Assembly: GCA_029964075.1 (NCBI GenBank)
Contig: CM057129.1
Coordinates: forward strand, 16,483,430 to 16,547,429
DNA length: 64,000 nucleotides
Direction: 5' to 3'
Source of the DNA: Patiria pectinifera
Lineage: Eukaryota > Echinodermata > Asteroidea > Valvatida > Asterinidae
A program made the translations under genes and the position numbers. The notes below the pieces were generated by a model. That model did not search any database. It had not been told where the DNA came from and saw only the letters and a program-made list of their open reading frames with translations. Of this stretch, positions 1 to 64,000 are shown piece after piece (the first letter of the stretch is position 1; every line of letters starts with the position of its first letter).

Positions 1-1
1 G

Positions 2-11580: not shown

Positions 11581-11589
11581 GGTAGGTAT

Positions 11590-14760: not shown

Positions 14761-14884
14761 TTCGATTGCAAAAAAAAAAGCTACACGAGTACAAGTTGAA
14801 AGACGATTATGTACACGGGTACAGGTATACTTAAAACTGCTGAAGCACGTAGCACCTGCTATCTGGGAAGAATTTTTATGTCGA

Positions 14885-17750: not shown

Positions 17751-17885
17751 AAACGTCAAGGACACCATCCCATTTCAAAATTCCTCGGAGTTCAGCAGGA
17801 ATAAAAAAGATGTATATGTCAACTTATATAATCAGTTGGTTTAAGTGTAGCATAAGTGGTCATAGTCACTTTGTGAATATAGAGG

Positions 17886-18383
17886 CCAGGTGCGGTGCTA
17901 CGGCGGGCTAGGAGGCTTTAGCCCCCCCCCCCCCAATTTTGTTTGGCCTTCCCGCCCCCCCCCACCCCGCCAAAATAAAATAGAAAAAAAAAATAGAAGT
18001 AGCGAATGTTAGAAGGTGACGTCACATGCAAGTGGTCTGCCCCCCCCAAAAAAAATATTCACTATATAGCCGGCCAGGCGCGGATCCAGGGGGGGGGGGA
18101 TTGTTTTTGTGTCAAACCCTCCCCTTCCCTGTTGAAAACAGTAGGCCTATTGACAATGAAAGCTTACATGTCCGCCACAGGCGTAGCCAATGGTAAGAAT
18201 GGGGCATTTGCACACTGTTATGTAGTATAGTTGAAAATATGGTACGAGCCGAGCCCCCTATTGATTTTGGAGGGCAAATGTCCGAAAAAACCCGCTCAAC
18301 ATTTCAGCAAGCCTCCCTGCAAATATTTCTGGATCCACCCCTGCTATACCCCCTAAAATATAGGCTCTAGAACTGCGCCCGGT
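17886..18383. mobile_element. CCAGGTGCGGTGCTA-ended MITE with nested copy
   Basis: The ends CCAGGTGCGGTGCTA and TAGAACTGCGCCCGG relate it to the element at 6852-7213. A second start (GGCCAGGCGCGGATCCAGG) lies inside at about 18070, so one copy probably inserted into another. Poly-C and poly-G tracts fill the interior. Confidence 0.6.
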
Positions 18384-18389
18384 CCTACC

Positions 18390-19771: not shown

Positions 19772-19781
19772 TCAGCTGAAT
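19772..19781 (-). CDS. Candidate terminal coding exon of the Fz/Ig gene
   Basis: An acceptor with a strong pyrimidine tract (CTCTGTTTTCTGCCCAG, minus strand) precedes 19781. Joined in phase 2 to the IgO exon it adds Leu-Phe-Ser and a TGA at 19772-19774, giving a protein ending ...VTVDLFS. If the preceding donor is not used, the unspliced frame ends VTVDL then TAA at 20095-20097. Either way the product would lack a membrane anchor. An unseen phase-2 exon further downstream remains possible. Confidence 0.4.
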
Positions 19782-22700
19782 CTGGGCAGAAAACAGAGAA
19801 ATACAATACCAATTTCGGTATTAGTTACTCTCAATGTCACAATAATAAAGATGTTCTTTCCATGGTCTCCAATTGTTCATTTACTTTCCTCCTAACAAAT
19901 TTGACTTTTGAGTGTTAAAGGGGTACACTTTTTTGGCGGGCTGTCTGCAACAGGCTTACAAAAAGTTTATCCATTTCCAAAGGTCTTTTTGAGGGTGAAC
20001 TTGAAAAAACAACGGGCAGTACATCTTTAATCAAGTCTCTTCTTATCCCTTACTATTTAACTACAAATCCCTTACCATCCATTTCTTGAGGTTCTTACAG
20101 GTCCACGGTAACACGCTGAATGGGACCAGCACAGGTGTAAGTGCCTTCATCTATGTGTGGCGCATAGTTCTTAATTTCCAGCACGGTGATGGAATCTGTG
20201 ATTTCAATCACTCGAACCCGCCTCCAGGAACCTATCAAAGAAAAGCTGAGTTGTATAATTTAAATCTGGAACTCAAGACTCGAGTCCACAATATCTTGCA
20301 ATTTCAGTGACTCAGACGTGACTCGAGTCACATTGATAAAAGATTCAGCAGAATAGAATAGCCAAGTTGTATGACTAAAGCCCTGAACTTGAGACTCGAG
20401 CCCACAAAATATTGTAATTTCAGTGACTCGGATGTGACTCAAGTCACACTGCTATTCTCTTCTTCTGAGTTTTTGTCAGAGTTGTATGACTGAAGTCCAG
20501 AACTCAGATTTGAGCCCACGTTATCTTGTAATTTCAGTGACTCAGATGTGACTCGAGTCACATTGATAAAAGATTCAGCAGAATAGAATAGCCAAGTTGT
20601 ATGACTAAAGCCCTGAACTTGAGACTCGAGCCCACAAAATATTGTAATTTCAGTGACTCGGATGTGACTCAAGTCACACTGCTATTCTCTTCTTCTGAGT
20701 TTTTGTCAGAGTTGTATGACTGAAGTCCAGAACTCAGATTTGAGCCCACGTTATCTTGTAATTTCAGTGACTCAGACGTGACTCGAGTCACATTGATAAA
20801 AGATTCAGCAGAATAGAATAGCCAAGTTGTATGACTAAAGCCCTGAACTTGAGACTCGAGCCCACAAAATATTGTAATTTCAGTGACTCGGATGTGACTC
20901 AAGTCACACTGCTATTCTCTTCTTCTGAGTTTTTGTCAGAGTTGTATGACTGAAGCCCAGAACTCAGATTTGAGCCCACGTTATCTTGTAATTTCAGCGA
21001 CTCGGATGTGACTTGAGTCACAAGGACAGAAGACTTAGAAGAATAGAAAAGCGGAGTTGGATGACTGTTGCCAAGAAATCAGATTCCAGCTCACAGTATC
21101 TTGCAATTTCAGTGACTCGAATGTGACTCGAGTAACACTGACAACAGACTCGGAAGAATAAAATAGCGGAATTGTATGACAAAGTCCTAGTAAAGTATCT
21201 AGTAAATTTCAGTGACCCGGACTTGACAGCAGTCACATTGACAAAAGACTCAGACTATCATTACTTGGACCTAACGCTGAGGACTTGTGACCCAAACTTC
21301 TTTAATCGGTTCAATTCAAAACTCATTACTCAGACTCGAACTCGTAATTGAGCCAAGTGTCTTGTGACTCAAGACTTGTGATTCATCGGCAACCAGATAG
21401 GCCTTACCGCTGAGGATTTCTCGTCCACTTGGGGAGAACCATCTCGGCTGGACGGGAGGCAGAAGATTGTAGGTGCACTCCACAGTCACCCTCCGTGTTC
21501 CTGCGCCTGCAACTGCGCCTATTTCAACCTCCTTCACTGTTAATGCAATCAATGTCAAAACACTATCAGAATCAGAAGGGAGAAAATTGTTAAAAATGAA
21601 CAAAATTCTGGTAAATTGATTCAGAATGGCTATTCACAGAAAGTCTTTTCATGCATCTGATGTACACGGGGTAATCGAACATATACAATAACACGTGCCA
21701 GTTCACAAGTGAAAGCCAGTGAGTGAGTGAGTGAGTCAGGGAGTGAGTCAGTCGGTCAGTCATCAGTCAGGCGCAATAGGACACTTGAGGCTTACCCTCT
21801 GAGACCAGAGTGTCAGGAAACATATTTTCATTTGTCCTCATACAGTGCCATGACAGCTCTGGTGCAAGTTCGAGCAAGGACCAGTGGTTAACTAGTGGTT
21901 GGTTCGTGACGTACCTAGCACATGAGCAATGAAGTTGAAGTGCGAACGACTCTATAGTCAAACAACTGTCATGTCAACGACCGTCAGAAAATGGCGGTCG
22001 CACAATTATTCAACACTTGTTTTATATTTACACAATATTAGTGATTGTGGAAGTTTAGGACATCTTACATAATCACCACTATTATTGTTTAATGGTGACA
22101 AAAGTGACATAATCGTAAACTAACATGGAAAACTGTGCAATGAAAATGAAACTTAGCGCCACAGTTTAGTTTTTGGCCATTTTTGTTGATAGTTGGTCCC
22201 TTCTGCACTATGCTATGGAAATAGCAATTGATAGCCAGCTATAAATTGTTGCGCGACCAGCCGCAGTAGGCTGGTTGCAAATAGTGGACTGGCGTAGTCA
22301 ACCATCGTCGACTAGACAGAGTTCAGGCTAACTTTAACCATTTATCAACACTAGTGCTAAAACTGCTAAAACTTGTGAAGGGTGTTTTTTCGATAAAACA
22401 TTGTGGGTATGTCATTTGCCATATACAATGTACGTCTGTTTTGTTGGCGAACTGGTACAACCAGTTCGCCAACACAGATGAGTGATGACCATAGTTGGAA
22501 CAAGCAAAAGATAATGTGAAAAGCAAACTCCCACTCCCACTGTTTTCATATGATTTTGAGCACATCTATGCAACAGAACGTGTAAGTCTCACCAGTCCAC
22601 GTTCACTTTAAAAAAAAAAAGAAGTTTTTATACCAAACACTGACTAGTCTAGTCACAGACTCTCGTGTTTGAATTTACCCACTCGTCATTCGTGTGATGG

Positions 22701-25700
22701 ATTGAACAGAAGTTGACATCGCTAAAATTAATTTTATAACACATATGTAGTCGTAAATTTAAAAATGTTCAGTACGTTGCAAATGGTAATGTTTTTTTTT
22801 CCTTTAAAAATACCCATCTATGCCCTTGATTAAAATGGCTCCAGTCAGGACACAAAATAAATGCAAAAAAATAGGATGTTGCACATGTTGTAGATCCTAC
22901 ACATAGTGTCCAGATGTGCTGTATTCTCATACAATCTTGCAGGTTTGTGAGGTCAACTTATTTAATGTATTGGTTGAAATATCTCTGGACTGCAATATTT
23001 TGGTACACACCATTATGGCACTTGGCACCGGGCTCATTCTCGCTGGGCATGGAGGCACAACTCTCCCTCATACCCGCGAGCTCCTCCACCGAGAATGTGA
23101 TCCTCAAAGTCTCTGCGCATTGGTCGACGGCAGTCAAGCACAGCTCCTTGCAAGGCAGCACGGCCCTCTCGCGGCAAGGCGGCAGGTAGAGGGCACACAT
23201 GTAGGGGCGGAAGTACGGGCTGCAAGGGTTGGCGAAGACGGGCTCCAGACCGCGGAAGACATCACCCAGCTCATTTTGGCCCAACCCGACTAGGCTAGGG
23301 ACGTAGGTTGATGAGTAGCCGATGCCAACAGTGCAGGCAGGAATTCGAATCTCCTCACAGGCTTAAATAATAACAAACATAATAAATGTGGAATGTGGAG
23401 GTAACATTATAGAATGGGGGAGTGTGGGCTTGTGATTAGGATTTGTGACTCATGGTGAGAGGATCTGGGGTTCCAATCCAGCTGCTGGCCATATGTTGTG
23501 TCCTTGGCAATCCACTTCACCCCCAATTGCCTCTCTCGTAACAGGAGTAAAAATGGGTGCCGGCATTAGCTGGGGAGTAACCTGTGATGGACTAGCATCC
23601 TGTCAAAGGGGAATAGAAATATTCTCTGCTCAGAGTGGTGGCTATATTATACAAATATTGACTGCTCCATTGCAAGTGCATTGTAACACAAGCCTTCTGA
23701 CAGAATTGTTTTTCCCCTAGGCACAGTCAAAGAAAAATGGAATCCTCCATCAATCACCAAGGAAGTCTAGTTTTACTTTACCACGTGTAAAAGCCTCAAC
23801 CACCGATTCTAATTCTTTCTTCTTTTTTTTTTTTTTGAGAGAGAGAGAGATTCGGATTAATTGATCCAACTTCCAATTTATAGGTTCTTCCAGTACATTA
23901 CAATATTTACTGAAAATTTACCATCACTTGTCCTGCTCCATCCCTTCACAAAATGTATGAATCCAACTCTGTAGCATGTGAGAATAATATGTACAATGCG
24001 CAAACCCATATTTTTTTTTTTACTTACGAGGTTGCTCTGATGGGTTAGCCAGTGGCCCCTGAGTGATGTCCCCAATGACTATGGTCTGGGCAGAGTCCGG
24101 GCCTTGACCAAGGCAAGTGTAGACACCAGCATCCGTGGAATCCGCAAAGTCTTTAATGACCAGCTCTGTTACACTGTCTGATGTGTTCACACCAAAGTGG
24201 CGACTAAATGGATTTCTTACAATGTCTGAAAGACAAGAGCATTAAAAGCCTCGGTTAAAAAAATATGTAAGGATGTAGGCTACATGCACTTAAGTGATAC
24301 CATAGCAATTTAATGGAAAACACCCCAGACAATTTAGATATCAAGCAAAAATCAGTTCAAAGAGCCAGTCCCTGTTTACGTACTTAAAGTTGTAACCCAA
24401 ACAGCCTTGTAGTCTATTAGATGTAGGCCATTTAAAAGTGCACCTTTAATGTGATGTCAAATGATATGTGATTATGTCATCATGACGTTTATCTCTAGCA
24501 CACCCCTGTCTAGGGACACACCTGGGCCCAATTTCACGGCGCTGCTAAGCACACATTTTTCTGCTAACAGAGCCTCCGTCTATTTCATGGAGACGGTAAG
24601 CATATAATAGCACATCCAAAGGCATGCTTACTTCAGAGGAAAAATTTGCTTAACTAAGTGACAAAACAATAGAAATCTCCATGCACGCGCGACCGTTAGC
24701 ACATCCACGCCGTGAAATAGTGCTTAAGGTTAGCACATTTTTCTGCTATGCTGAGCACAATTTTTCTGCTAACCGTTAAGCAGTACCCAGGTATCGACCC
24801 AATCGAACATGTACTTCTGTAGACATGGGCCTTTTAATAATTCACCTTAAATGTGATGTCACATGACATGAGGTGACGTCATCATGACGTCATCTCAAAT
24901 TTCATCTATCACACAACCTTGTCTAGGTATATACCAAGATTCAGCCCAATCAGACATGCACTTCTGTAGATGTAGGACTTTGAAAAAGCACTTTTAACAT
25001 GCTGTCACATGACACATGACAAGATCATGATGACATCAATTTTATTTGGCACACATCTACAGTAGTTGGTTCATGACTGTGCCAAGTTTAACGTCAATGG
25101 GGTGAGAAACAAACATGTAAAAATGCTATGGACTAAAACAAATTCGGGGGGGGGGGATTTCTTGTTGGGATACACCCAATAGAATGATTTTCCGAAGCCT
25201 ACCTCTGGGCACCACTGCACCATACAAGTCCAGCCAGATGGGTTGAAATGGCGGGCTAGACTGGGAAGTGCACGAAACTGATGCATACACTGAACCGGCG
25301 ATATTTATGGTGCTCACTTCACCAATCACAATCTCATCTGCTGGCAGGGAGAGAAGAGAATGAGGATTGATAATAAAAACTTTAAAAAAAAACTAAATGC
25401 AAATCGAAACAAAATACTTGAAATACAAATTGTGAATACAGCAAAGAGATGATGCTGAACAATCATCATCATCATCACCAAGTTGGCCACAGCCCCACTC
25501 CCTCCGATCCGCCATAAGGGTGGCAAGCTCGCCGCCCGTCTCCACACCAGTGTCTTTCTTCAGCATCCCCACATAGGACATAGCTTGTTGAATAATGAAA
25601 AATAACAATGAATGTGAAGCCATTCAGCTGACTGTTTCGTGGACTATTTGTGTGGCATCCGGCTTAATAAGCAACCCAGCTTGGATGTCTCCCAACACCT

Positions 25701-28700
25701 CCATTTTCCCGCGCTGATGATAGGAATGTGTGCTTCTTGGCAATGACTGGCTCAAATGTGTAATGCAAGATGCTGGAACAATGAAACTGTCTTTCATCTG
25801 AGCACACGGTTGCTTAAATTGAAGAACGGATGGCAATTTTCTGCATTCCAGTCATAGCAGCCCTAAAACAGGTACAGTGAGCACCGAAAGCTTGGTTCTA
25901 GAAATCCCATCAGCAATGGCTATTTCACTTTTGCCAGTTCACGTTGTTAAAATGAAATTAAAAGAAAAATGTTGCAGCACCTCAGCTCCTTCAGTTGTTT
26001 TTTTATTGAAGGCAACAAACATGGGCCAAGTTGATGCATTTTCATTTGGGATTATTTCACTTACTAGATTGCTCTGATGGTTCTGCGACAGAGGGCAATG
26101 TGGTAGGGTTAGCCAGTGGCCCCTGAGTGATGTCCCCAATGACTATGGTCTGGGCAGAGTCCGGGCCTTGACCAAGGCAAGTGTAGACACCAGCATCGGT
26201 GGAATCCTTGAAATCGCTAATGACCAGCCCTGTTACACCATCTGATGATCTCACAGCAAGGATGCGACTAGATGGATTTGTTGGAATGTCTGAAAGATAA
26301 CAAAATTAAGAGACTGAGTAAAAAAAGGAGCACAAGGATGTAACTGCACTAAAGCCATACTTAATTGAAGGACATTTTCAGGGATTACCTTAATTTTTTT
26401 TGGACAAACATTTAATAATTTCTCTTCATTCTGAGGCCTACCTTCGGCTATGGGCACCACTGCGCCATACAAGTCAAGCCAGATGGGCTGAAATGGTGGG
26501 CTGGATTTGGAGATACACGCAACTGATGTATAAATTGAACCGATGATGTCCACAGTAACCACTTCACTAATCTCAATCTCATCTGCTGGCAGGTAGAAAA
26601 GAGAATGAGGAATCAAAATGAAAACGTTGAAACGGTCTTAGCTGCAAATCAAAACAAAATATTTGAAATCCTCATTGTTAATATTGCAAAAGACACGATG
26701 CTCTGTAACAATGGAAATGTAAGAATGTGACTTGAAAAAGTAAACCAAGTGCCGTTAAGCTGTCTGTTTTAACAGAACGTATGGCCGTGCAATGTCCAGC
26801 AAAAGTAATCTTGCCTGGCTGTCGATCACCCCAATTCTCCTGCACACTCTACTGATCATATAAATGTGGTGTCTTGGCAATGGCTAGCTTCGACGTGAAA
26901 TGCAAAATGATAGAACATTACTTTCGATCCAAGCCCACACTTGCTACATTGGATGAACCCAGGAATTTACTGTCTTCAGTCAGTACAGCTCTACAGGTTT
27001 TTACTAGCATTAAACGGCAAAAAAATTGTGTCAACTTGATGCATATTTATTTTTACTTAATAACTTACGAGGTTGCTTTGAGAGTTCTGTAGTGTTAACC
27101 TGGGGACCGAGAGTGATGTCCCCAATGACTACGGTCTGGGCAGAGTCTGGGCCTTGACCAAGGCAAGTGTAGACACCAGCATCGGTGGAATCCTTGAAAT
27201 CTCTAATGATCAGCCCTGTTACACCGTCTGAAGTGTTCACAGCAAAGTGGCGACTAAATGGATTCGCTGAAACGTCTGAGAGATAACATTAATCTTAACA
27301 TTAACCTTTGTACAAAAAGGGGATGAATCAAAGCATATAAAATCATGCGAAAGCAATGCCTCTATTATTCGACACATTTTCACACACCACTTTTATGAAG
27401 AAAAAAAAACCATTGGACATCGCATTTCACTGATCAGAATCAGCCCAACTTGGAGAAGAGATGGTTTTCAACTACGTACTGATTACAAATCAATGGTGTA
27501 TGACGGTTGGGATGCTAGCAATAAGGTATCAATGGAAAGCTGATACACCACCCTTTAAGATAAAACCCCATTGGACACTTCAAGTCCACAATTTTGAAGC
27601 ACTGACCCATATATGAGCTCCGTGCATGAAGGAAAGAGGGCGCCCTTTTACCAAGCAACGACGTCCCATGGGCGGGACATTTAGCTGGTTGACGCGCACC
27701 GTTCCTTGTACTTTTGTGTGACCATTGATCTCCATTAGCTAATCTTACTAATGGAGTTCAATATGTGTGTCGCATGTACACAGGGGATTTATACTATGTA
27801 CAACCAGTCGTATGGCCGCGCGTCGCGGCAAAATTGCAGTCAGGCAAGATGGCGTCGTTCGGTCACCCCCAACTGTACTCTGTTTGCCGGTGAGGGGGGT
27901 ACTTGTGAACGGAGCAGATAGGGGGATTGTTTTGCTAGGATTCACCCTGAAGAATAACTATTATTTCTGAGGCCTACCGCTTGACACCACTGCGCCATAG
28001 ATGTCCAGCCAGATGGGTTGAAATGGCGGGGTGGATGTGGAAGTACACGCAACTGATGCATAAACTGAACCCCCGATATCCAAAGTGGCCAGGTCACCAA
28101 TCACAATCTCATCTTCTGGGAGGGAGAAAAGAGAATGAGGAATCAAAATGAAAATGTAGAAACAGAATTAACTGCAAATCAAAATAGTTGAAATCCAAAT
28201 GGTTAATATTACACAAGACAGGATGCTGAGTAACAATGGCAATAATCAGAATGTGAACTGGAAAAAGTAAACAAAGTGCCATTAAACTGTCTTTTTCACG
28301 GAACGTCTGCGCAATGTCCAGTTAAAGCAACTTGCCTGGCTGTCTCAAATTGCCCCAATTCTCCTGCACGCTCTACTGATGATAAATTGTGTGTTTTGGC
28401 AATGGTTAGTTCCAGTACGAAATCCAAGATGACAGAAAAATAAGTCCAGTTTTCTTATCAGAGCACATGCTGGCTTCATTGCATGAACCTAGGAATTTAC
28501 TGCCTTCCAGTCATTACAGCTCTACAGGTTTTTACTAGCATTAAAAGGACACTGTGTCCTGAACGAAATACTGTAAATCGGAAAGAACATTAAGTAAGAT
28601 ACAAAACATCGGCACAATTATCCTTTAAAAACTGGGCGTTTTTGTTATATTCTTGTGTTGTGCGTGCAAGAATGACTTTCGGGGTCCACTTTTGCGACCC

Positions 28701-31700
28701 CTAAAAGTCAGGCTGTTCATGCTAGTTGTGATTCCAGCCATAAAGTGTTTGCCTTTTGCAGACGTGTAAGAAACCACATATGTGCGATGGTGCTGTGTGC
28801 AATTTATGTGACATACCCAAAGTGTATTGTACATTGACAGGAAAAACGTATGCGTACTCCGTCGTGTTTGATGTAAACAACCAGGGTTTTTCGTCTTTTC
28901 TCGAGAACGGTAAGGTTGGTTTTCTTTCAACCAGATGTTTGAAATAGGATAAGCAAACAATTAAAAACATGAACATTTGGTTGATTTCAGGACGCATGTG
29001 CCCCTTTCAAAAAGCAACACAATTATTGGCAATGTCCAGCAAAAGTAACCTTGCCTGGCAGTCTCCCATATTGCCATAATTCTCCCGCACGTTCTACTGA
29101 TGATATAAATGTGTGTGTCTTGGCAATGGCTAGCCGCAATGTGAAATGCATGATGATAGAACAGTGTGTTATTTTCTATCTGAGCACACGCTTGCTTCAT
29201 TGGATGAACCTGGGAATTTTCTGCCTTCCAGTCATAGCAGCTCTGCAAATTTTTTACTAGCATTAAAAGGCAACAAAATTGTGCCAATTTGATGCCTTTT
29301 TATTTTTGCTTAACTTACGAGGTTTCTTTGACGGATCTGTAAGATTAACCTGGGGACCCAGAGTGATGTCCCCAATGACAATGGTCTGGGCAGAGTCTGG
29401 GCCTTGACCAAGGCAAGTGTAGACACCAGCATCGGTGGAATCCTTGAAATCTCTAATGATCAGCCCTGTTACACCGTCTGAAGTGTTCACAGCAAAGTGG
29501 CGACCAAATGGATTCGCTGAAACGTCTGAAAGATAACAGCATTAAAAGTCTTTATAAAAAAAGGAATGAAAGGATACAATGCCAATGCAATGCCTCTATT
29601 ATTCCACATGTTTTCAACTTTTATGAAAAAAACAAAACTAGTGCTTGTGCATTGTTTGGACATCACAGTTCACTGATCAGAATCAGCCCAACTTGTTGGT
29701 CAGTCCTCCATGACTTCTGGGTTGCTATTAATGGAAAGCTGATACATCACCCTTTAAGATAAAACCCCATTGAACAGTATACAAATATAACATGGTTAGA
29801 GGGTGGACAGTCGATATTCGCTCCCCGAGGTATTGGAAGTTGACAAACTAGTTCCCGAGGCGAAGCCGAGGGAACTAGTTTGTCAACTTCCAATACCGAG
29901 GGGAGCTAATATCGACTGTCCACCCGAAATAAACCATGTTATATTTGTTTTACTATACCTCATACATATTCAGTTGCCGAATTTTGTTTTATTATTATGC
30001 ACCTAAAACAAAATTCGGGGAAACTTGTACAGCTCACCACAAAATTCAACTTCAATTACTAGTTCGGTTCGTTTGCAATATAATACAGTTACAGTTGTAA
30101 ATACAAATGTTTGCAATGTGTACAACTTTCTTTTGTACAGGAGACATCTTTACACGGTCTATAAATTTTCTCCAGTACGGCATCGTTGAGCTCTGGAAAT
30201 TAACATTTACGCGAACCATGCAACCATGCATCTCTCCTGGGCGATGTTCGCGCGTGCGTACTGCACCCGTGCGACAGTTCCTCGATTGCTCTGTAAAGCG
30301 CATGCGTAGTAGACTGTCGCACGGGTAACCCATGCGACAGTCTACTACGCATGCGTATTTACAATGTGCGTGAATCCTCGCGCGCGCGTTTGGTAAACAG
30401 CAAGAATAACATCTGGCACGTGATGGTGAATTGACCAGTGAACGTTCGGCTCTCGATCATGAATATGTATGAGGTATAGTAATTAAGGCCATAACTTTGA
30501 AGTACTGACCCATATAGGGGCATTTTTCTGTTTGGATTCACCCTGAAGAATCACTATTAATTCTGAGGCCTACCTCTGGGCACCACTGCGCCATAGATGT
30601 CCAGCCAGATGGGTTGAAATGGTGGGATGGATGTGGAAGTACACCCAACTGATGTCATCATGAAACCACCGATATCCAAGGTGGTCACCTCACCAATCAC
30701 AATCTCACCTTCTGGCAGGGAGAAAAGAGAATGAGGAATCAAAATGAAAATGTAGAAACAGAATTAACTGCAAATCAAAATAGTTGAAATCCAAATGGTT
30801 AATATTGGAAAAGAAAGGATGCCGAGTAACAACGGAAATATAAGAATGTGAACTGGAAAAAGTAAACAAAGTGGCATTAAACTGTCTTTTTCACGGAACA
30901 TCTGCGCAATGTCCAGCTAAAGCAACCTTGCCTGGCTGTCTCAAATTGCACCAATTCTCCTGCACACTTTACTGATGATATAACTGTATGTGTCTTTGCA
31001 ATGGCTACATGTAGCTCAAATACGAAATCTAAGATGACAAAAAAATAAGTTAACTTTTTGATCAGAGCACACGCTGGCTTCATTGCATGAACCTAGGAAG
31101 TTACTGCCTTGCAGTCACTACAGCTCTACAGTTTTTACTTGCATTAAAAGGCAACAAAATTGTGCCAATTTGATGCCCTTTTTATTTTTGCCTAACTTAC
31201 GAGGTTGCTTTACGGGTTCTGTAGTGTTAACCTGGGGACCGAGAGTGATATCCCCAATGACTATGGTCTGGGCAGAGTCCGGACCTTGACCAAGGCAAGT
31301 GTAGACACCAGCATCGGTGGAATCCTTGAAATCTCTAATGACCAGCGCTGTTACACTGTCAGAAGTGTTCCCAGCAAAGTGGCGACCAAATGGATTTGCT
31401 GAAACGTCTGAAAGATAACAACATTAAAAGTCTTTGTAAAAAAGGGGATTGAAAGTGTACAATGCCATGCCAAAGCAATGCCTCTATTATTCCACACATT
31501 TTCACACACCATTTTTATGAAAATAAAACAGGGGTTGTGCGTTGTTTGAACATTGCATTTCACTGATCAGAATCAGCCCAACGTGGACAAGAGATTGTTT
31601 TGAACTACGCACTGATTACAAATCAATGTTGTACAACTGTTGGGATGCTAGCAATAAGGTTTCAATGGAAAACCGATAATTCATCCTTTGAGATAAACCC

Positions 31701-42324: not shown

Positions 42325-42356
<32 letters not shown>

Positions 42357-48300: not shown

Positions 48301-51300
48301 TGTGTATCGGAGTATCACGAGGTTTGTAGTGTGCTTGTTTACTCTCTGTGCAAAGATGCGTTCCATCTCGTCATCTGAGCATAACAAAACAACAGGATGC
48401 AAAAAATGATGACACTAAGAGAATCACAGTTGAGTCCTCATCTGAGTCTGACAAGTATAATGAAATATCAGTTATAGTAGAAAATTTACCACAATAAACG
48501 AGACAAGTTTCATGTGAGTACATAGAAATTTGGATACAAATTCAAGTGGGTATGAACAAAAAGTATATGAGTGTTGAAAACATGGAATACTTGTAAAAAG
48601 TACCCAGACCCAAGTTAAAAGTCCTTTTGACATTTTTTTTTTACATTTCTAGCACACCCATGTCAAGTCGTTTGCCCCAAAACTCATATTTGTACTTATT
48701 CAGTGTACAAACTAATTCATTTAATTTATTCCAATAATGAACACTATAACCGTGTATTTCAGAATATTTAGGGACTCATATAAGGACACAAATAAAACAC
48801 AGCAGCAAAACTTTTGACATCCAATAAATCTCATACACAATGGATCGCACACCTAGACTGGTGGTCATCACAAGGTTGTTTCTGTAGAAGGCTGAGGTGG
48901 TGACAGAGAGGATATAAATGCTGGATCTGCTAGGGTTGCAATTTGTTTTCAAAATCAACATCCCCAAGCATCTTAATTAGATGCAGAAGAAGGCCAGGGC
49001 CTGGGGGAAGGGACCTATACTGCCATCCCAAACAGCAAACAATTTATTTATGTTGATGGTTCATTCTGTGGTTAAAAATATCTCATCCTGTAAGCACAGA
49101 ATACCTGTGCTAGTGCAGTAAGAATGGAATGATCAGATGGTGATCAAACATGAAGGATTCTGCCATGTAGTATAGAGGCATGAAATTGGGCCTTGGTTTT
49201 GCCACCCATTGGAGATATACTTGCTGAGCAGAATTCTGTAGAGCATCATCTTCAATCCAAGTTGCCTTAAACTTTTTGACTAAGCACTTTATGTTGATGT
49301 TCTAAGTAGGTCCGTCGCCAGCCCTGAGCGTCAGGGGGGCCACAGTACCAACTAAAGGGGCCCGCTATCATAAAAATACAAAAATACACATGCATTGCTT
49401 TTGCTGTTGGGGGGGGGGGTATTGGTCGCCATGGGGGCCCAGCCCCCCCAGGGCCCCCCCCCCCCCCCTTGGCGACGGGCCTGGTTCTAAGCCTTTTATG
49501 TGTTATACCAGTTATCAGGTTGCCATCCGGAGTGAACCACTGCGGCTGAATCTTAGGCGAAAGGTCATAGCTACAGGTCACTCGCACCTCAACCATCGGC
49601 ACGTTGTCAGCGCTGTCTCTTACTTCTTCAACTGCGCCAACGTTTAATGCTGTTAGAAGAAACAAAGAACACTTAGAATATTCTACAGCATATCGTTACT
49701 TAACCCCAACCCTCCTATATGTCCTTAAAATTCACCAGATGATTTGAGTAGATTTTCAAATCACAAGTCTATCTATTTATTATTCATTAATTGAAATGTT
49801 GAACGAAGAAATAGACTGGAGCGGGGTTTGAACCTGCAACCTCCGGATTACTGTTCCAGTCCTCTACCAACTGAGCTGTCCTTGTTGGCGGTGTACCAAT
49901 ACGTCAATATCTTTATCTTGAACAAAGACATTGACGTATCGGGGAACTTCGGTCTGGATAACTCCGTTGGAAGAGCACCGGAACGGTTTATCTGGAGGTC
50001 GCAGGTGCAAACCCCGCTCCAGTCAATTTCTTTGTTCAACTTTTCAAAAAATTGTTATAATTCACCGAGTCAGTTTCCCTTTGTAGTTCATTTGCGAAAT
50101 ATTTATTTATTTATTTATGATTAAGCTTTATGCAGGGACGGCAAACCTAATCCACACTTTGGCCAAGGTAGAATTTGAACCTTGGTGACAGCAGCGGAAG
50201 GCGAGGAAAAACTTGTGACTTAACATGTGATTAAACTTGATTAGAACTTTGCTTGACAGATCAGATTCGAACCAGCCAACTGATCATGCAAGCTCGGTGG
50301 CCGAGTGGCAAGATGTCTGCACTAGAAAGCAGGAGGTCATGGATTTGAGTCCCAACCGAGTGATTTTTTTCTCAACTTTTACTCGGGAGGTAACACACTG
50401 AGCATACAGTGTTTATACATCGGCGAAGGGCAAAACGTAATGTTGTTGGACAGAGTAAGTATAAAAAATATAAATTGAAAATCGTACCTGACATACAGGT
50501 GCTGTACTGTGTTGCGCTGGGGAACCTAGTACAGTCCAGCTGCGGCGGCCAGTCCAATCCTACGTGACGCATGGTGCGTTTACAGCTGGCCTGCGCTTTC
50601 TCACACAGGTCACGGCACGGCAGCGACGCACCATTGGACTCGTGGTCACAAGGCGGCAGGTAGACGGCACAAAGCAAGGGCTTGAGGTACTCCCGACATC
50701 CCCTAGCCTTGCTCATGATGGGTAGATAGGGTTGGAGCTGACCAACAGCTTCATGTTGGGTCATGAAATGCTGATGGTCCATCGGTCCGGGACCAGGTAC
50801 CTCAACCGGCATCCTTGTATACCGGTGGAGGACCCCTGACCCACGGCACGTGCTGACTGTGATTGGTTCGCATTTTCCTATTAAATCAAAACAGGAGATA
50901 CAATGATGTGTTTATTGTGTAAATGTTGTAGCACTTGACATTATTATTATTCATGAAAACTGGGCCTTTACAATTCCTTATTTATACCATCCAATCTCCC
51001 TGGGGAATATATTCAGCTCGATGCAGCATTTTTTGAGGAACAAACAGCTACTCCAAGATCGATCTCTATCTCTGCCCTCACAGGTATCCATTTACTCCTG
51101 GGTGGAGAGAAGCAATGACCAAGTGTTTTGCCCAAAGGACACACGCACTGCAATCCGAAAGGGTGGACTCCAAACCACAACCTGCTGAGCTGATTCAATG
51201 CTCCAGGCAATTAAGAGGCACAATATGACTGGCATGATGATATGAATCCAATAACCACTACCTCACGACTCCTAAAAGAGCAATAAGTTTGTAAACAAAT

Positions 51301-57300: not shown

Positions 57301-58361
57301 TCTGTGGCAGTTTATTACTGGCCTGTATCCTTAGTATAGCTGGTTGACTAAATAACAACTCTGCTCTTGATATCATTGTGGAGGAATAAACATATTGGCG
57401 CGGTCGAGACTATGAAATTATTTATGACCTTGGAGCATCCCACCTACTGACGGAAAAGACTTTCGCTACCCGGACTACGGCCGGTGTAGACTTGGCCAAG
57501 TCTGGGTTGCGCTCGGTCTGTATCACATTCAATTACAAACTGCCCCGTGAATTATTATCTGAAAAAAGCGGCTTGTACAAGGTTGCTTTCGCCATTGAAC
57601 TTGAGGCCAATGAACTTCGGGATATAGCGTGCCATTAATTTGGGTACGTATAACAAGTCTATATCCCGATTTTTTTGTCCAAAATTTTGAACGGATCTGT
57701 ACCTCAGCTTCATGGACATGAGGTAGGCTAGCTTGGAAACTACTCGGTTCTTAAGGCTCATGACACGATGACACTAAAATTCGCCATTTAAAGCAGGTAG
57801 AATATTGGTTTTATGGAGCTATATGCCCCCAAACATATGCCTATACCCAAACTACAGGGTGAGTAAAAAAAAACGAAACTCAAATTTCAGGACTATTGTT
57901 TTAGTGAAGTTCTGCACATGCACTTTAAAAATCTAGGATATGAACGCCAAATTCATAAGCTTTTTTTTAGTACAAAAATCATTCAAATCACTCATGTACT
58001 TTTCAAGTCATTTCGATTTTTTTCCAAAATTTTTGAACGAATCTGTACCGTACATGGACAGTGAGGTAGTAGGCTAGCCTGCTTGGAAACTACTCGGTAT
58101 GATGCTCATATGACACTGAACTTATCGCCATTTAAAGCAGGGAGAATGCTGATTTTAACATGGGCTATGCTACAAAACATATGCCTACCCAAACTGTACC
58201 CCACCATGTTCCACTTCAAGTTCCCGCCTGCACAGAGCATAGAAGTAGACCGTGCAATGAGGTACGTGTGTAAACTAACCTGATACCTGGCCGGCTTCAA
58301 TGAAGTTCTGGCGAGCCGTCAGGAAGATGGCCAACACAAGTCGCCAAATCAAAGAAGGCAT
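19772..58361 (-). CDS. Giant multi-exon Frizzled-CRD/Ig-domain protein gene
   Basis: A single transcription unit read right to left. Exons: signal peptide 58280-58361; Fz1 50488-50877; IgA 49509-49649 and 48207-48374; Fz2 47507-47860; IgB 46844-46975 and 46240-46404; then twelve array Ig domains C to N between 45128 and 24028; Fz3 23011-23361; IgO 21408-21536 and 20099-20231; possible terminal exon from 19781. The sum is about 6.2 kb of coding sequence, about 2,065 residues. All internal junctions I could phase are phase 1 except the last donor (phase 2). Fz CRDs bind Wnt or lipids in known families; Ig domains mediate recognition. ROR and MuSK also join Ig and Fz domains but have one Fz, few Ig, a membrane span and a kinase, none of which is seen here. 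I know no named family with this order. Exon chaining is inferred; it could in principle be more than one transcript. Confidence 0.8.
20099..21536 (-). CDS. IgO: last Ig domain (two exons)
   Basis: The first half is at 21408-21536 (phase 1-1, 43 codons) and carries VTVECTYNL and the core PRWFSPSG. The second half is at 20099-20231 (phase 1 to phase 2) and ends in DEGTYTCAG. The first Cys, the Trp and the DxGxYxC motif are all present, so the Ig fold is complete. It follows Fz3 and most resembles IgA (QPQWFTPDG in IgA, QPRWFSPSG here), supporting an ancestral Fz-Ig module. The intervening intron is filled by a 230-bp tandem repeat. Its donor CT/GTAAGA changes phase, marking the end of the symmetric exon series. 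Confidence 0.82.
20240..21260. repeat. 230-bp tandem repeat in the IgO intron
   Basis: Three nearly identical 230-bp units (phase points near 20310, 20540, 20770), each made of two ~115-bp half-units, with degenerate copies up to about 21260. Each half carries TTTCAGTGACTC(A/G)GA(T/C)GTGACTC and a GACTCGAGTC-like palindrome. Recent amplification in the centre, older copies at the edges. Confidence 0.9.
21408..21536 (-). CDS. IgO first-half exon
   Basis: 43 codons. The acceptor follows CACTAACAG-type sequence (minus strand ...ACAG before 21536) and the donor is AGCG/GTAAGG. Its start joins in phase 1 to the end of Fz3, giving Val-Lys-Glu-Val at the boundary. Confidence 0.82.
21715..21775. repeat. 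GTGA/GTCA microsatellite
   Basis: Run of GTGA tetramers grading into GTCA, in the intron between Fz3 and IgO. Confidence 0.75.
23011..23361 (-). CDS. Fz3: third Frizzled-type cysteine-rich domain
   Basis: One exon of 117 codons, phase 1-1. It opens CEEIRIPAC and holds the family spacing NPCSPYF, YMCALYLPPC, LPCKELC, DQC, ESC and AKC, ten cysteines in all. The YxCxxYxPxC and PCxxLC cores are diagnostic of the Fz fold seen in Frizzled, ROR, MuSK and collagen XVIII. The donor lies at CATAATG/GTGTGT and the acceptor ends TTTAAG. It separates the twelve-domain Ig array from the last Ig. The linker between cysteines 2 and 3 is longer than the Fz minimum and lacks the usual CEPI start. Confidence 0.92.
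23445..23625 (+). mobile_element. SINE fragment
   Basis: Contains a B-box-like GGGTTCCAATCCAGC followed by TTGTGTCCTTGGCAATCCACTTCACCC, the body typical of tRNA-derived SINEs in several deuterostomes. It lies in the intron between Fz3 and IgN. Confidence 0.6.
24028..25340 (-). CDS. IgN: array Ig domain nearest Fz3 (two exons)
   Basis: First half 25203-25340; the acceptor is ambiguous by one codon, with 25337 the alternative (NAGNAG). It carries the ACTSQSSPPFQPIWLDLYG-like core. Second half 24028-24225 (66 codons), with TDAGVYTCLGQGPDSAQ. Both are phase 1-1. It is diverged from the central units in introns and first half, yet its second-half core is almost identical to theirs at the DNA level. 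It ends in the TQGPLANPSEQ tail shared with IgM rather than the TLGPQVN tail of the others. Confidence 0.86.
24400..25070. repeat. Diverged direct repeats in the IgN intron
   Basis: A segment containing GATGTAGG(C/A)C(A/T)TT...GCAC(C/T)TTTAA...TGATGTCA...TCATGACGT recurs near 24420, 24830 and 24965. The second and third also share CCCAATC...CACTTCTGTAGA. Old, non-coding. Confidence 0.5.
24527..24800. mobile_element. GGGCCCAATTTCACGG-type MITE
   Basis: Begins GGGCCCAATTTCACGGCGCTGC and has internal inverted GTGAAATAG...TTTCTGCTAACCGTTAAGCAG segments. Related copies lie at 45300-45525 and, as a fragment, near 49185-49196. Confidence 0.5.
26065..26585 (-). CDS. IgM: array Ig domain (two exons, shortest intron)
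   Basis: First half 26442-26585 (48 codons; NAGNAG acceptor, alternative start 26582) with VACISKSSPPFQPIWLD and a variant end, VVPIAEG. Second half 26065-26289 (75 codons, the longest of the array) because of an extended tail (NPTTLPSVAEPSEQS). Phase 1-1 throughout. The intron within the domain is only about 150 bp, compared with 360-1,560 bp for the other array units; the array's transposon insertions are missing from it. Confidence 0.87.
27069..28115 (-). CDS. IgL: array Ig domain, type B (two exons)
   Basis: First half 27978-28115 with DLATLDIGGSVYASVACTS and the type-B ending VVSSG. Second half 27069-27275 with NTSDGVTGLIIRDF and TDAGVYTCLG. Sequons at NTS and NTT. Phase 1-1. The internal intron carries the 304-bp MITE that marks type-B units. 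Partner of IgK in the third AB dimer. Confidence 0.88.
27614..27917. mobile_element. Type-B MITE, copy in IgL
   Basis: About 304 bp, flanked by ATA duplications. Ends GAGCTCCGT and ACGGAGC are inverted. Sister introns that lack it read CCCATATAGGGG, the empty site. Contains ATTAGCTAATCTTACTAAT and CCGCGCGTCGCGGC palindromes. Copies are at the same site in IgJ, I, H and F, so it spread by unit duplication, not by new insertion. Confidence 0.75.
28560..29050. repeat. Dimer-junction intron block, copy 3
   Basis: A ~480-bp intron segment (from TTAAAAGGACACTG to GGACGCATGTGCCCCTTTC) found only between an A and a B unit: here, at 35750-36235 and at 39160-39645. It shows that three AB dimers descend from one. 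Confidence 0.85.
29319..30711 (-). CDS. IgK: array Ig domain, type A (two exons)
   Basis: First half 30574-30711 with EVTTLDIGGFMMTSVGCTS and the type-A ending VVPRG; nearly identical to IgG. Second half 29319-29525 with NTSDGVTGLIIRDFKD, TDAGVYTCLGQGPDSAQ and tail VNLTDPSKKP. Phase 1-1. Its intron holds a private 0.7-kb multi-hairpin insertion absent from sisters. Confidence 0.88.
29778..30482. mobile_element. Multi-hairpin foldback element private to IgK
   Basis: Interrupts the site that reads TTGAACAGTTAAGGCC in IgG. It holds a near-perfect 125-bp palindrome (29801-29925), a second (about 29975-30018, CCGAATTTTGTTTTA / AAAACAAAATTCGGG), and a third (30299-30356, ATGCGTAGTAGACTGTCGC and inverse). 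A 23-bp inverted pair (TTACTATACCTCATACATAT near 29949, inverse ending 30482) brackets the right part. No coding capacity. Probably one composite element, or two nested. Confidence 0.7.
31201..32248 (-). CDS. IgJ: array Ig domain, type B (two exons)
   Basis: First half 32111-32248 (DLTTLDIGGSVYASVACTS ... VVSSG). Second half 31201-31407 (GNTSDSVTALVIRDFKD ... TDAGVYTCLG ... VNTTEPVKQP). Both phase 1-1. Second-half protein identical to IgH and IgI. Carries the type-B MITE. Confidence 0.88.
31747..32050. mobile_element. Type-B MITE, copy in IgJ
   Basis: Same insertion site and ATA borders as in IgL; an inherited copy. Confidence 0.75.
32740..33786 (-). CDS. IgI: array Ig domain, type B (two exons)
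   Basis: First half 33649-33786, second half 32740-32946; phase 1-1. Encoded protein matches IgH and IgJ. A few silent and intron differences (e.g. ATTCGC instead of ATTTGC early in the second half) identify it as the odd unit of the triplet. Confidence 0.88.
33285..33588. mobile_element. Type-B MITE, copy in IgI
   Basis: Inherited copy at the shared site, ATA on both sides. Confidence 0.75.
34276..35323 (-). CDS. IgH: array Ig domain, type B (two exons)
   Basis: First half 35186-35323, second half 34276-34482; phase 1-1. First of the triplicated B units in protein order. It follows type-A IgG across the dimer-junction intron. Confidence 0.88.
34822..35125. mobile_element. Type-B MITE, copy in IgH
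   Basis: Inherited copy. It has a private change in its palindrome (ATTAGCTTATC). Confidence 0.75.
35750..36235. repeat. Dimer-junction intron block, copy 2
   Basis: Between IgG and IgH. Homologous to 28560-29050 and 39160-39645. Confidence 0.85.
36508..37193 (-). CDS. IgG: array Ig domain, type A (two exons)
   Basis: First half 37056-37193 (EVTTLDIGGFMMTSVGCTS ... VVPRG). Second half 36508-36714 (NTSDSATGLIIRDFKD ... VNLTDPSKQP) with donor CCCA/GTAAGT instead of the usual CCTC/GTAAGT. Phase 1-1. The intron lacks both the MITE and the IgK insertion, so it preserves the empty sites used to date them. Confidence 0.88.
37686..38733 (-). CDS. IgF: array Ig domain, type B (two exons)
   Basis: First half 38596-38733 (DLTTLDIGGSVYASVGCTS ... 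VVSSG). Second half 37686-37892 has the type-B tail and one substitution in the otherwise fixed LGQGPDSAQ core: CTCGACC on the + strand makes it LGRGPDSAQ. Phase 1-1. Confidence 0.87.
38232..38535. mobile_element. Type-B MITE, copy in IgF
   Basis: The fifth copy at the homologous site, slightly more diverged (e.g. GAGAGGGGTGC in place of GAGGGGGGTAC). Confidence 0.75.
39160..39645. repeat. Dimer-junction intron block, copy 1
   Basis: Between IgE and IgF. Homologous to the blocks at 35750 and 28560. Confidence 0.85.
39942..40629 (-). CDS. IgE: array Ig domain, type A (two exons)
   Basis: First half 40492-40629 combines a type-A ending (VVPRG) with a type-B-like body (DLTTLDIGGSVYASVACTS), a mosaic. 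Second half 39942-40148 with NTSDSVTGLIIRDFKDSADAG and tail VNLSDPSKQP (NLS sequon). Phase 1-1. Confidence 0.87.
41056..42623 (-). CDS. IgD: array Ig domain (two exons) with LINE in its intron
   Basis: First half 42489-42623 (45 codons, one fewer than most: DIGSVFVTVSCTS). Second half 41056-41262 (NTSDGVTGLVIRDFKD ... VNLTEPSKQP), starting with RNFAVNTSD where others have RHFA. Phase 1-1. The intron is the longest within an array Ig except IgC because of the LINE fragment. Confidence 0.87.
41504..42355 (+). mobile_element. 3' fragment of a LINE reverse transcriptase, in the IgD intron
   Basis: The + strand frame encodes the C-terminal RT region common to many non-LTR elements: DDFKYLIGSTITK, SRIGKAATTFCRLRHRVW, YCSESWTTHRR, LNSFHFRCLRSILGVS, then RGQPRLRYKDVLKCDL. 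Stop codons after ILGVS and before AGRVHRQVN show it is dead. It ends in a (GAT)n tail (about 42325-42355). Sister introns show the uninterrupted site GGAAAGCTGATACACCACCC, which fixes both borders. 5'-truncated, antisense to the host gene. Confidence 0.88.
43366..45128 (-). CDS. IgC: first Ig of the array (two exons)
   Basis: First half 44982-45128 (PEIEIGEVNQVDVLGLRYTS, ACVSTS, LPIWLDLYG, VVPLG). Second half 43366-43560 (65 codons), starting with a private sequence (NPLSRLIASKVSESEAMLF). After the DDSTDAG point it becomes nearly identical in DNA to all later units. Phase 1-1. The most diverged array member in its introns and first half, so probably the oldest. Confidence 0.87.
43775..44080. 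repeat. GATGGAC(A/T)TGTGAT minisatellite in the IgC intron
   Basis: Irregular ~11-21-bp units of TGTGATGGACTTGTGATGGA type, strongly biased between strands (almost no C on the + strand). Confidence 0.85.
44457..44812. mobile_element. hAT-like MITE in the IgC intron
   Basis: Inverted ends CAGGGGTGTAGC and GTGGCTACGCCT enclose poly-G and poly-C tracts. The flanks AATTCTTA and ATTTCTTA form an approximate 8-bp target duplication. Confidence 0.6.
45300..45525. mobile_element. GGGCCCAATTTCATGGCTCTGC MITE
   Basis: The left border TCAATTTCACGGCTCTGCTTAC and the right border GGCAGAGCCATGAAATTGGG are inverted copies. Sits just upstream of the IgC first half in the gene's sense. Confidence 0.6.
46025..46140 (+). 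mobile_element. tRNA-derived SINE copy 1
   Basis: GGCAAGCTCGGTGATTGAATGG resembles a tRNA D-arm/A box, and AGGAGGTCGTGGGTTCTAAT a B box. The preceding CAGATTCGAACCAGTCAGCC is shared with the copy at 50263. Confidence 0.55.
46240..46975 (-). CDS. IgB: Ig domain after Fz2 (two exons)
   Basis: First half 46844-46975 (44 codons) with KRVEVECYHAP and RAVWVTPDG. Second half 46240-46404 (55 codons) with ILRLVINDFVDFKDAGRYTC. Conserved Cys, Trp and DAGRYTC make a complete V/I-type Ig. Phase 1-1. One sequon at NRT and one at NVT. More like IgA and IgO than the array; it closes the second Fz-Ig module. Confidence 0.88.
47507..47860 (-). CDS. Fz2: second Frizzled-type cysteine-rich domain
   Basis: One exon of 118 codons, phase 1-1. 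Starts QTTCEPIPDFWWC, the canonical CEPI opening, then SGCSQYIGAALCATYLTEC, PVLCRDLCEKVDREC, LSCD and DGDC: ten cysteines in family spacing. The GC-rich codon choice contrasts with the AT-rich introns. Acceptor TTACATTTAG, donor AATG/GTATGC. Confidence 0.94.
47893..48030. repeat. 20-bp CATCACAGGTCAATCACAAGT repeats
   Basis: Six to seven nearly perfect units in the short intron between IgA and Fz2. Confidence 0.9.
48207..49649 (-). CDS. IgA: Ig domain after Fz1 (two exons)
   Basis: First half 49509-49649 (47 codons) with VEVRVTCSYDLSPKIQPQWF. Second half 48207-48374 (56 codons) with TTNLVILRYTDSFDSGNYTC. Complete Ig hallmarks (Cys, Trp, DSGNYTC). Phase 1-1; donors ACTG/GTATAA and GAAG/GTTTGC. 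A 177-bp MITE sits just 3' of the first-half donor. Confidence 0.88.
49307..49483. mobile_element. 177-bp hAT-type MITE with perfect 8-bp duplication
   Basis: Ends TAGGTCCGTCGCCA and TGGCGACGGGCCTG are inverted, with two differences in 14 bp. The identical octamer GTTCTAAG flanks it (49299-49306 and 49484-49491). Long G and C tracts inside. An 8-bp duplication is typical of hAT elements. Confidence 0.85.
49798..50040. mobile_element. V-shaped element: two inverted tRNA-like ends
   Basis: The left arm (minus strand) reads AGCTCAGTTGGTAGAGGACT then GGTTGCAGGTTCAAACCCCG, a full A-box/B-box tRNA-like unit. The right arm (+) carries GGTCGCAGGTGCAAACCCCG and the same CTCCAGTC...TTTCTTTGTTCAAC end. 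Arms of about 50 bp are inverted. Resembles a tRNA-SINE pair joined head to head. Confidence 0.65.
50263..50360 (+). mobile_element. tRNA-derived SINE copy 2
   Basis: AGCTCGGTGGCCGAGTGGCA, then AAGCAGGAGGTCATGGATTT and GAGTCCCAACCGAG, similar to a Ser/Leu-type tRNA. Shares AGATTCGAACCAGCCA with copy 1. Confidence 0.6.
50488..50877 (-). CDS. Fz1: first Frizzled-type cysteine-rich domain
   Basis: One exon of 130 codons, phase 1-1. Starts KCEPITVSTCRG, then ARGCREYLKPLLCAVYLPPC, SLPCRDLCEKAQASC, LDCTRFP and STCMS: ten cysteines and an excellent match to the Fz pattern (CAVYLPPC, PCRDLCE). It joins in phase 1 to the signal-peptide exon more than 7 kb upstream. An extra 15-20 residues (VPGPGPMDHQHFM region) lie between cysteines 2 and 3. 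Confidence 0.95.
51240..51629. other. Intron 1, non-repetitive part
   Basis: No exon found. AGCTGAAA-rich simple sequence near 51480-51615. Confidence 0.4.
51630..52560 (-). mobile_element. Degenerate LINE reverse transcriptase in intron 1
   Basis: Minus-strand pieces read in order from the right: SPGPDEIPAQ (RT motif), NITPLFKKGSLELRNGKI, then KLWEHIIDSHLMEHHQILVN followed by NNQHTFCKGKSNESQLSLI, and a C-terminal block with ISFRKPSRYGTIF-type sequence in another frame. This order is that of CR1/Jockey-like non-LTR elements. Frames shift between blocks, so it is an old, inactive copy in the same sense as the host gene. Confidence 0.75.
52960..53640. mobile_element. Inverted-repeat element with CCCTAACGTGGCGCACTT motifs
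   Basis: The left side has GTTTGACCATGGAGCTAT and two CCCTAACGTGGCGCACTT copies (53018 and 53234 regions). The right side has AAGTGCGCCACGTTAGGG, a second GCCACGTTAGGG and ATAGCTCCATGGTTTGAC inverted. Non-coding middle, GC-poor. Probably a non-autonomous DNA element of about 680 bp in intron 1. Confidence 0.5.
53641..54576. other. Intron 1, nothing recognised
   Basis: Contains a GTGGG-rich stretch at 53720-53760, diverged repeats around 54030-54180 (AGACAAGACAT(A/T)GCTGATTAAAACTGG twice) and GTACGAGGCGTC-like repeats at 54355-54470. No exon signals found. Confidence 0.4.
55411..55910. mobile_element. 500-bp MITE with perfect 15-bp ends and 9-bp duplication
   Basis: Ends CAACCTCGTCCCCAG and CTGGGGACGAGGTTG. 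Flanked by ACCGGACCT on both sides (55402-55410, 55911-55919). A 9-bp duplication fits Mutator-like elements; superfamily inferred. Confidence 0.88.
55989..56486. mobile_element. Second copy of the 500-bp MITE
   Basis: Same ends with one change at the right (GAGGCTG). Flanks GTCTAGCAG and GTCTAGCAA. Same orientation as its neighbour 79 bp away; an independent insertion, since the duplications differ. Confidence 0.85.
57670..58200. repeat. Duplicated ~190-bp segment just inside intron 1
   Basis: Two diverged copies, at about 57670-57865 and 58015-58200, share TTTTGAACG(G/A)ATCTGTACC, GGAAACTACTCGGT, CGCCATTTAAAGCAGG and AAACATATGCCTA. They lie within 600 bp of the first coding exon. Non-coding; possible regulatory duplication. 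Confidence 0.7.
58280..58361 (-). CDS. Signal-peptide exon of the Fz/Ig gene
   Basis: Minus-strand ATG at 58359-58361 opens MPSLIWRLVLAIFLTA, a short basic start and a hydrophobic core, then RQNFIEAGQVS. Two donors are possible: CAG/GTATCA at 58287 (phase 0) and CAG/GTTAGT at 58280 (phase 1). Only the second fits the phase-1 start of Fz1, so I chose it. No other exon was recognised between here and Fz1, leaving a first intron of about 7.4 kb. Confidence 0.72.
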
Positions 58362-63861: not shown

Positions 63862-64000
63862 GAACATGTCTAAGAAATAGCAGTGACATTATTTGGACGT
63901 TTAATATGAAATCTTCGATTTATTATAATATTTTTCCCCGCCATATTAGAGCAAAGACAGAGATATGGCCTAAAATAAAATACCGGGGTCCATAGATTTC

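Follow-up and report, generated by a model that had tools for sequence, protein, structure and literature searches.

A minus-strand gene model from Patiria pectinifera combining three Frizzled-type domains with a recently expanded immunoglobulin array

On the minus strand of a Patiria pectinifera contig, within the 64-kb stretch of DNA that was analysed as a whole (hereafter the window), 34 exons join into one open frame of 2065 codons with no internal stop. The encoded order is a signal-peptide candidate, Fz1, Ig1, Fz2, Ig2–Ig14, Fz3, Ig15 and a stop, and the domain order and counts given in a preliminary description of this DNA hold in that frame. From the frame, the splice phase and the short gaps before Fz2 and Fz3, we infer a single gene reaching from 58361 to about 20095. 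By analogy with known proteins we think it rather probable that its product is a secreted, multivalent extracellular Wnt-binding protein or modulator. What is new here is the recently amplified array of immunoglobulin (Ig) domains and, within it, an 81-bp stretch that is near-identical in 12 Igs.

Results

Exon modules

The features are listed from the 5' end of the gene model. Ig exons come from the HMM search and splice sites unless other evidence is named.

58280..58361, minus: exon 1, candidate signal peptide MPSLIWRLVLAIFLTARQNFIEAGQVS, phase-1 donor; not above other-strand background
50488..50877, minus: Fz1 cysteine-rich domain (CRD), single exon, phase 1-1; Pfam E 5.7e-22, AlphaFold2, Foldseek
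49509..49649, minus: Ig1 first half, weak donor (2.5); HMM search, splice sites, Pfam
48207..48374, minus: Ig1 second half; HMM search, splice sites, Pfam
47507..47860, minus: Fz2 CRD, single exon, two prolines of Fz1/Fz3 replaced; Pfam E 1.9e-16
46844..46975, minus: Ig2 first half, least certain exon; HMM E 0.61, splice sites, alignment
46240..46404, minus: Ig2 second half, weak acceptor (2.1)
44982..45128, minus: Ig3 first half
43366..43560, minus: Ig3 second half
42489..42623, minus: Ig4 first half
41056..41262, minus: Ig4 second half
40492..40629, minus: Ig5 first half
39942..40148, minus: Ig5 second half
38596..38733, minus: Ig6 first half
37686..37892, minus: Ig6 second half
37056..37193, minus: Ig7 first half
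36508..36714, minus: Ig7 second half
35186..35323, minus: Ig8 first half
34276..34482, minus: Ig8 second half
33649..33786, minus: Ig9 first half
32740..32946, minus: Ig9 second half
32111..32248, minus: Ig10 first half
31201..31407, minus: Ig10 second half
30574..30711, minus: Ig11 first half
29319..29525, minus: Ig11 second half
27978..28115, minus: Ig12 first half
27069..27275, minus: Ig12 second half
26442..26585, minus: Ig13 first half
26065..26289, minus: Ig13 second half
25203..25340, minus: Ig14 first half
24028..24225, minus: Ig14 second half
23011..23361, minus: Fz3 CRD, single exon; Pfam E 1.6e-14
21408..21536, minus: Ig15 first half, weak acceptor (2.1) taken to keep phase 1; HMM search
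20095..20231, minus: Ig15 second half and stop TAA, with an alternative splice at 20099 to an exon ending at 19772; HMM search
24028..45128, minus: array of twelve related Igs (Ig3-Ig14), an 81-bp F-G stretch in each second-half exon
30514..35756, minus: units of about 1.54 kb, the youngest in tandem, 97% identical over exons and introns; self-comparison

Frizzled domains

Three ten-cysteine Fz domains had been placed at 50488-50877, 47507-47860 and 23011-23361, and Pfam finds them at the same coordinates with 78.8, 61.0 and 54.8 bits for Fz1, Fz2 and Fz3 (cut-off 32.1); their ten cysteines are invariant in the alignment of the three. Searched against PDB sequences, the Fz profile gave 59 matches at E <= 0.01, ranked as 40 Frizzled receptors, with FZD8/FZD4 as the top solved relatives, then Sizzled, SFRP3 and Smoothened, and ROR2 last. 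Queried alone, Fz1 and Fz3 both found FZD3 first (E 1.4e-14 and 8e-11) and Fz2 found FZD5 first (E 3.4e-6). The Fz1 query also gave Sizzled at 1.2e-7 and SFRP3 at 2.2e-6, while ROR2 reached E 0.12 with Fz3 and was not listed at E <= 10 with Fz1 or Fz2. The best of five AlphaFold2 models of Fz1, based on a three-row alignment, had a mean pLDDT of 73.8 and a pTM of 0.70 (the worst mean was 41.6), and Foldseek matched it best to FZD5/FZD8 (E 2.6e-8, TM 0.74). Judged by sequence similarity, all three CRDs are of the Frizzled-receptor type, unlike the ROR/MuSK type. The preliminary description had drawn its comparison with the ROR and MuSK kinases; membership in that group was rejected, the CRD profile scoring ROR2 at 0.0049 against 2.6e-20 for FZD8, with MuSK absent from the list and no kinase or kringle in the protein.

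Two prolines of FZD3, one before the third cysteine and one in the YxPxC motif (here YLPPC), are kept by Fz1 and Fz3. At the same positions Fz2 has SE and YLTEC, both prolines being replaced. We take the segments that hold these prolines to border the Wnt-lipid groove.

Immunoglobulin domains

An iterative HMM search that started from a single Ig unit and took in all stop-to-stop frames of at least 20 aa, on both strands of the 64-kb window, found first-half and second-half Ig exons, 15 of each, alternating along the minus strand; among plus-strand frames of that length there was no hit under E 1. The fifteen two-exon Igs of the preliminary description are borne out at E <= 1e-12 for 29 of the 30 exons (14 of 15 first-half, all 15 second-half). 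The exception, the first half of Ig2 (E 0.61), scores no better than minus-strand strays at 4763 (0.41) and 19524 (0.58), and is placed by its position, its splice sites (7.0 and 9.7) and a C and a W in register.

In the eight of the 15 Igs that were aligned, C26, W38, R53, L66, D76, G78, Y80 and C82 are invariant, and the Cys, Trp and DxGxYxC pattern of the Ig superfamily is present; on this sequence pattern the Igs are taken as being of the I/V-set kind. An eight-row Ig profile matched titin (E 1.5e-17), DSCAM (1.3e-8) and contactin (4.7e-8), values that add up several domains per protein; taken singly, no titin stretch scores better than E 0.019. A Pfam check of the spliced protein, which the preliminary description had proposed, recovered the three Fz domains but was weak for the Igs: among five scanned singly only Ig1 exceeded its cut-off (ig, 26.1 vs 21.8), Ig3 had no match, and the common array-type Ig reached Ig_3 at E 0.053. 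Since a tree of the 15 Igs has one well-supported inner branch among 12 and very long branches for Ig1, Ig2 and Ig15, we claim no history of Fz-Ig pairs.

Some Pfam matches in the spliced protein were taken as artefacts: Csm1 (36.8 bits vs a cut-off of 22.6), in which no single stretch passes and the score is a sum over repeats; MRP-S23 (23.8 vs 22, residues 1640-1683); and FZ_RECK (22.9 vs 27), which lies across the Fz domains.

Proposed function and a structural alternative

As had been stated earlier from the sequence, Pfam and hydropathy find no kinase, kringle or membrane span in the spliced protein. Pfam likewise matches no netrin or 7TM domain there (netrin-like: none at E <= 10), and hydropathy, the sole measure used for membrane spans, peaks at 1.56 for any 19-residue window. 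The protein would be secreted, and it carries 23 N-glycosylation sequons.

In the reading that we favour, the gene would have arisen as phase 1-1 exon modules were shuffled and duplicated in tandem. The CRDs near the two ends of the protein, Fz1 on the N-terminal and Fz3 on the C-terminal side, would have a Frizzled-like core that binds the lipidated tip of a Wnt, and Fz2, in which the two prolines are lost, may be a spacer or may bind something else. The Ig array may form a long rod or adhesive stalk that holds the CRDs apart, so that the protein could trap Wnts at two sites or retain them in the matrix, acting in the manner of sFRP-1, a secreted sea urchin protein with both Fz and Ig domains. 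Among the three functions that the preliminary description had considered, a Wnt-binding decoy gains most support.

Possible, though clearly less probable, is a structural or matrix protein, in which the Ig array does the work, as a long and perhaps length-variable tether, and the CRDs serve as protein or lipid docking sites and are no longer Wnt receptors. Such a protein would suit the 15 Igs against 3 CRDs, the fact that the recently amplified part is the Ig array, the lack in Fz2 of the prolines that Fz1 and Fz3 retain, the number of sequons, and an Ig profile whose best solved relatives are titin, DSCAM and contactin. However, Fz1 and Fz3 are still Frizzled-like at the E-values given above, and the sea urchin Fz/Ig protein that has been studied works on Wnt signalling, according to the available text of PMC5778778.

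Gene model

All 33 introns of the spliced model are GT/AG and of phase 1, which agrees with the compatible phase claimed earlier throughout (33 of 33 junctions). With the reading frame of each hit fixed and the phase left free, phase 1/1 gave the top-scoring splice sites for 28 of the 30 Ig exons; the exceptions are the two exons of Ig15, the first of which was then given a weaker phase-1 acceptor (2.1), while the second reads into the stop. The three Fz exons run from phase 1 to phase 1 as well. The splice-site scores come from generic matrices, and the weak sites on this scale are the donor of the first Ig1 exon (2.5) and the acceptors of the second Ig2 exon and the first Ig15 exon (2.1 each). 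At the 3' end, the frame either closes at TAA (20097-20095), within Ig15, or is spliced at 20099 to the short exon ending at 19772, which adds two residues, leaves the architecture unchanged and matches the end given in the preliminary description.

The exon at 58361-58280 is the top signal-peptide candidate, with a donor of 8.8 and a hydrophobic core. Across the window there are 19 signal-peptide-like exons on the minus strand (4 with a donor >= 7) and 26 on the plus strand (2 with such a donor); because the opposite strand is no poorer in exons of this type, the signal peptide is a candidate and, together with the first exon of Ig2, the least certain part of the model.

Two or three adjoining genes, made up of [Fz-Ig] units and the Ig array, might have been read as one. 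Signal-peptide-like first exons with phase-1 donors do occur inside the gene model, for example at 46444-46240 (donor 9.0), at 38899-38731 (10.6) and at 24009-23922, directly before Fz3. We nevertheless consider several genes unlikely: the gaps before Fz2 and Fz3 are just 346 and 666 bp, no intron after the first exceeds 1474 bp, and frame and phase 1 continue unbroken over the 33 junctions.

Flanks and other features of the window

G+C content is 36-43% per 4-kb window, and scans for tRNA genes and Rfam families gave 0 of each. Pfam frame scans of the flanks covered minus 1-10001, 10100-20094 and 50900-60890 and plus 1-9990, 10001-19990 and 54010-64000, and gave only the end of a chondroitin GalNAc-transferase and a sub-threshold DUF7380 (E 0.046); no exon for a kinase, a membrane span or any further domain showed up in these flanks, although such scans miss domains that are divided among short exons. 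Intron scans covered minus 20098-30087, where they found Fz3, and minus 40080-50069, where they found Fz2 and one weak Ig_5. Scans of genomic frames by Pfam thus caught Fz2 and Fz3, each a single exon, and practically none of the half-Ig exons.

A chondroitin N-acetylgalactosaminyltransferase gene, convergent with the Fz-Ig gene, has its 3' end at 2-1057 on the plus strand (Pfam CHGN, E 1.7e-102), and an open frame of tandem repeats with 'APIKGVVLLN' words lies outside the gene on the minus strand at 12973-13341. Within the gene, a minus-strand frame at 46444-46240 starts with ATG and a hydrophobic stretch, MNLPNLLLAVVV, and reads on into the second-half exon of Ig2 as far as that exon's donor, forming a possible alternative first exon. 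The introns of the gene hold several repeats: a sequence of about 0.5 kb in two copies, 83% identical, in the first intron (55411-56483); short tandem repeats at 47897-48027 (21-bp units) and 43774-44079 (11/92/114-bp units); and a 230-bp (2 x 115) repeat, in about four tandem copies, at 20248-21180, within the intron that splits Ig15.

Expansion of the Ig array

Self-comparison of the array finds consecutive units of about 1.54 kb that are 97% identical at 30.5-35.8 kb, longer blocks that are 94-96% identical, and other pieces of at least 400 bp down to 77%; Ig8 and Ig10 have identical in-frame codons. The expansion of Ig3-Ig14 is recent. Over all pairs of Ig4-Ig12, pN is 0.062 and pS 0.095, and their ratio of 0.65 is high, which also fits weak constraint and in that respect tells against the Wnt-binding reading.

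There is a small chance that the near-identical units are an assembly artefact and that the true array is shorter or longer, an explanation that is compatible with the other readings. The 97% identity of consecutive units and the identical codons of Ig8 and Ig10 would suit it, but other unit pairs are only 77-96% identical and the introns within domains vary in length (for example about 342, 703, 1048 and 1226 bp).

A near-identical 81-bp stretch

The second-half exons of Ig3-Ig14 (24028-43560) each hold a copy of an 81-bp stretch that spans the F strand, the FG loop (the CDR3 position) and the G strand. The 12 copies show 0-2 mismatches in 65 bp, and the 64-kb window has no further copy at <= 3 mismatches. 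Whereas codons 1-27 of these exons have a pN of 0.165 and a pS of 0.164 (pN/pS about 1.0), the next 27 codons, DSTDAGVYTCLGQGPDSAQTIVIGDIT, have 0.008 and 0.094. In pairs with the divergent Ig3, Ig13 and Ig14, pN and pS are 0.005 and 0.085 in the stretch against 0.279 and 0.301 in the adjoining codons. Among 98 windows the stretch has the lowest pS and the lowest pN, and none of 5000 random column sets was as low, a figure that is a guide only, columns and pairs being non-independent. When Ig3, Ig4, Ig13 and Ig14 are compared, six 20-column windows at the core of the stretch have an identity of 1.0; the value drops to 0.6-0.8 immediately outside and is back at 0.84-0.88 by the donor site.

Protein selection alone explains this stretch poorly, because synonymous change is low too, and an RNA structure behind the conservation was unsupported (fold z -0.75). 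Short-tract gene conversion or constraint at the nucleotide level would explain it, and the data fit both. Tentatively, a nucleotide-level process, such as repeated gene conversion over short tracts or a hot spot of recombination, may copy the stretch among the twelve tandem Igs and keep one face and the domain joints alike while the rest diverges. If that were true, the gene would encode a Wnt-binding protein of evolving length, perhaps differing among individuals, whose array tunes the distance between two Wnt-binding CRDs. An immune-type recognition protein with diversified Igs, the remaining function suggested earlier, is disfavoured because the FG loop is the array's most uniform part, and it seems very improbable: many young Ig copies and the pN/pS of about 1.0 over codons 1-27 of the second Ig exon would suit it, but that ratio is not clearly above 1 and we know of no immune-recognition role of Frizzled CRDs.

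Discussion

Secreted proteins with several Fz domains and Igs form a little-studied layer of Wnt control, and one that carries fifteen Igs would illustrate the reach of exon shuffling and tandem duplication in proteins of this kind. It would also offer a natural test of whether Wnt capture is tuned by the number and spacing of CRDs. The uniform 81-bp stretch is, in addition, a compact case for gene conversion or nucleotide-level constraint inside one gene.

The closest comparison is with sea urchin sFRP-1, reportedly first described by Illies in 2002. It shares with the present protein several Frizzled-type ten-cysteine CRDs together with Ig, and no netrin domain or membrane span was found in either. 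They differ in that sFRP-1 has four tandem CRDs and one Ig, while here three CRDs stand apart with Igs between all of them, and twelve of the fifteen Igs form a recent array. The available text of PMC5778778 describes sFRP-1 as a protein that has a signal sequence and four CRDs, with its single Ig placed between CRD3 and CRD4, and that lacks a netrin domain and a membrane span, and as an antagonist of Wnt1/Wnt8–Fzl5/8-JNK signalling that helps to set the anterior territory of the sea urchin embryo (Khadka 2018). The same text counts at least 15 novel Fz-CRD genes in the sea urchin and at least four genes related to sFRP-1, of similar architecture, in a sea star; hemichordates appear to be without sFRP-1. 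The name has since become sFRP-like, as the accessible part of PMC12550998 has it. The CRDs of sFRP-1 are reported as related to sFRP3/4 (PMC5778778, available text), and FZD3 as first match of Fz1 and Fz3 agrees loosely, at the sequence level, with that kinship. We draw no descent from sFRP3/4, because SFRP3 scores below FZD8 or FZD4.

The claim that no described family has this order needs to be divided. For the exact order of three Fz and fifteen Ig domains, no description was found in a literature search that took in few subscription papers, and the available parts of PMC12549020, PMC7308585, PMC12419801 and PMC5460417 hold nothing on it; secreted echinoderm proteins with several Fz domains and Ig, however, have been described (PMC5778778, in the text available).

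Other known systems share single aspects. Frizzled receptors (FZD3, FZD5, FZD8, FZD4) are the nearest solved relatives of all three CRDs, but have a 7TM domain, which was not found here. Canonical sFRPs (SFRP3, Sizzled and others) are secreted Fz proteins, as the present one would be; they carry a C-terminal netrin-like domain, whereas here none matched and there are several CRDs and an Ig array, and the present CRDs are less like theirs than like those of Frizzled receptors (for Fz1, SFRP3 at 2.2e-6 vs FZD3 at 1.4e-14). ROR1/2 and MuSK combine Ig and Fz in one protein, as here, MuSK with three I-set domains, one Fz and a kinase (PMC3927609, available text). Unlike them, the present protein has no kinase, kringle or membrane span that we found, the domain proportions are reversed, and the CRDs are not of the ROR type. 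Human proteins with Fz-type CRDs are named in the available part of PMC6747125, corin among them with two. Titin, DSCAM and contactin also have tandem Igs and are the best solved relatives of the Ig profile; here, by contrast, Fz domains are inserted among the Igs, and no other domain type or membrane anchor was found. Splice phase does not settle the affiliation, because lancelets have also spread Ig domains via phase 1-1 exons (PMC4284660, available text). Taken together, the kind already in print is that of secreted echinoderm proteins with several Fz domains and Ig, of which the present gene, far larger, appears to be an extreme variant.
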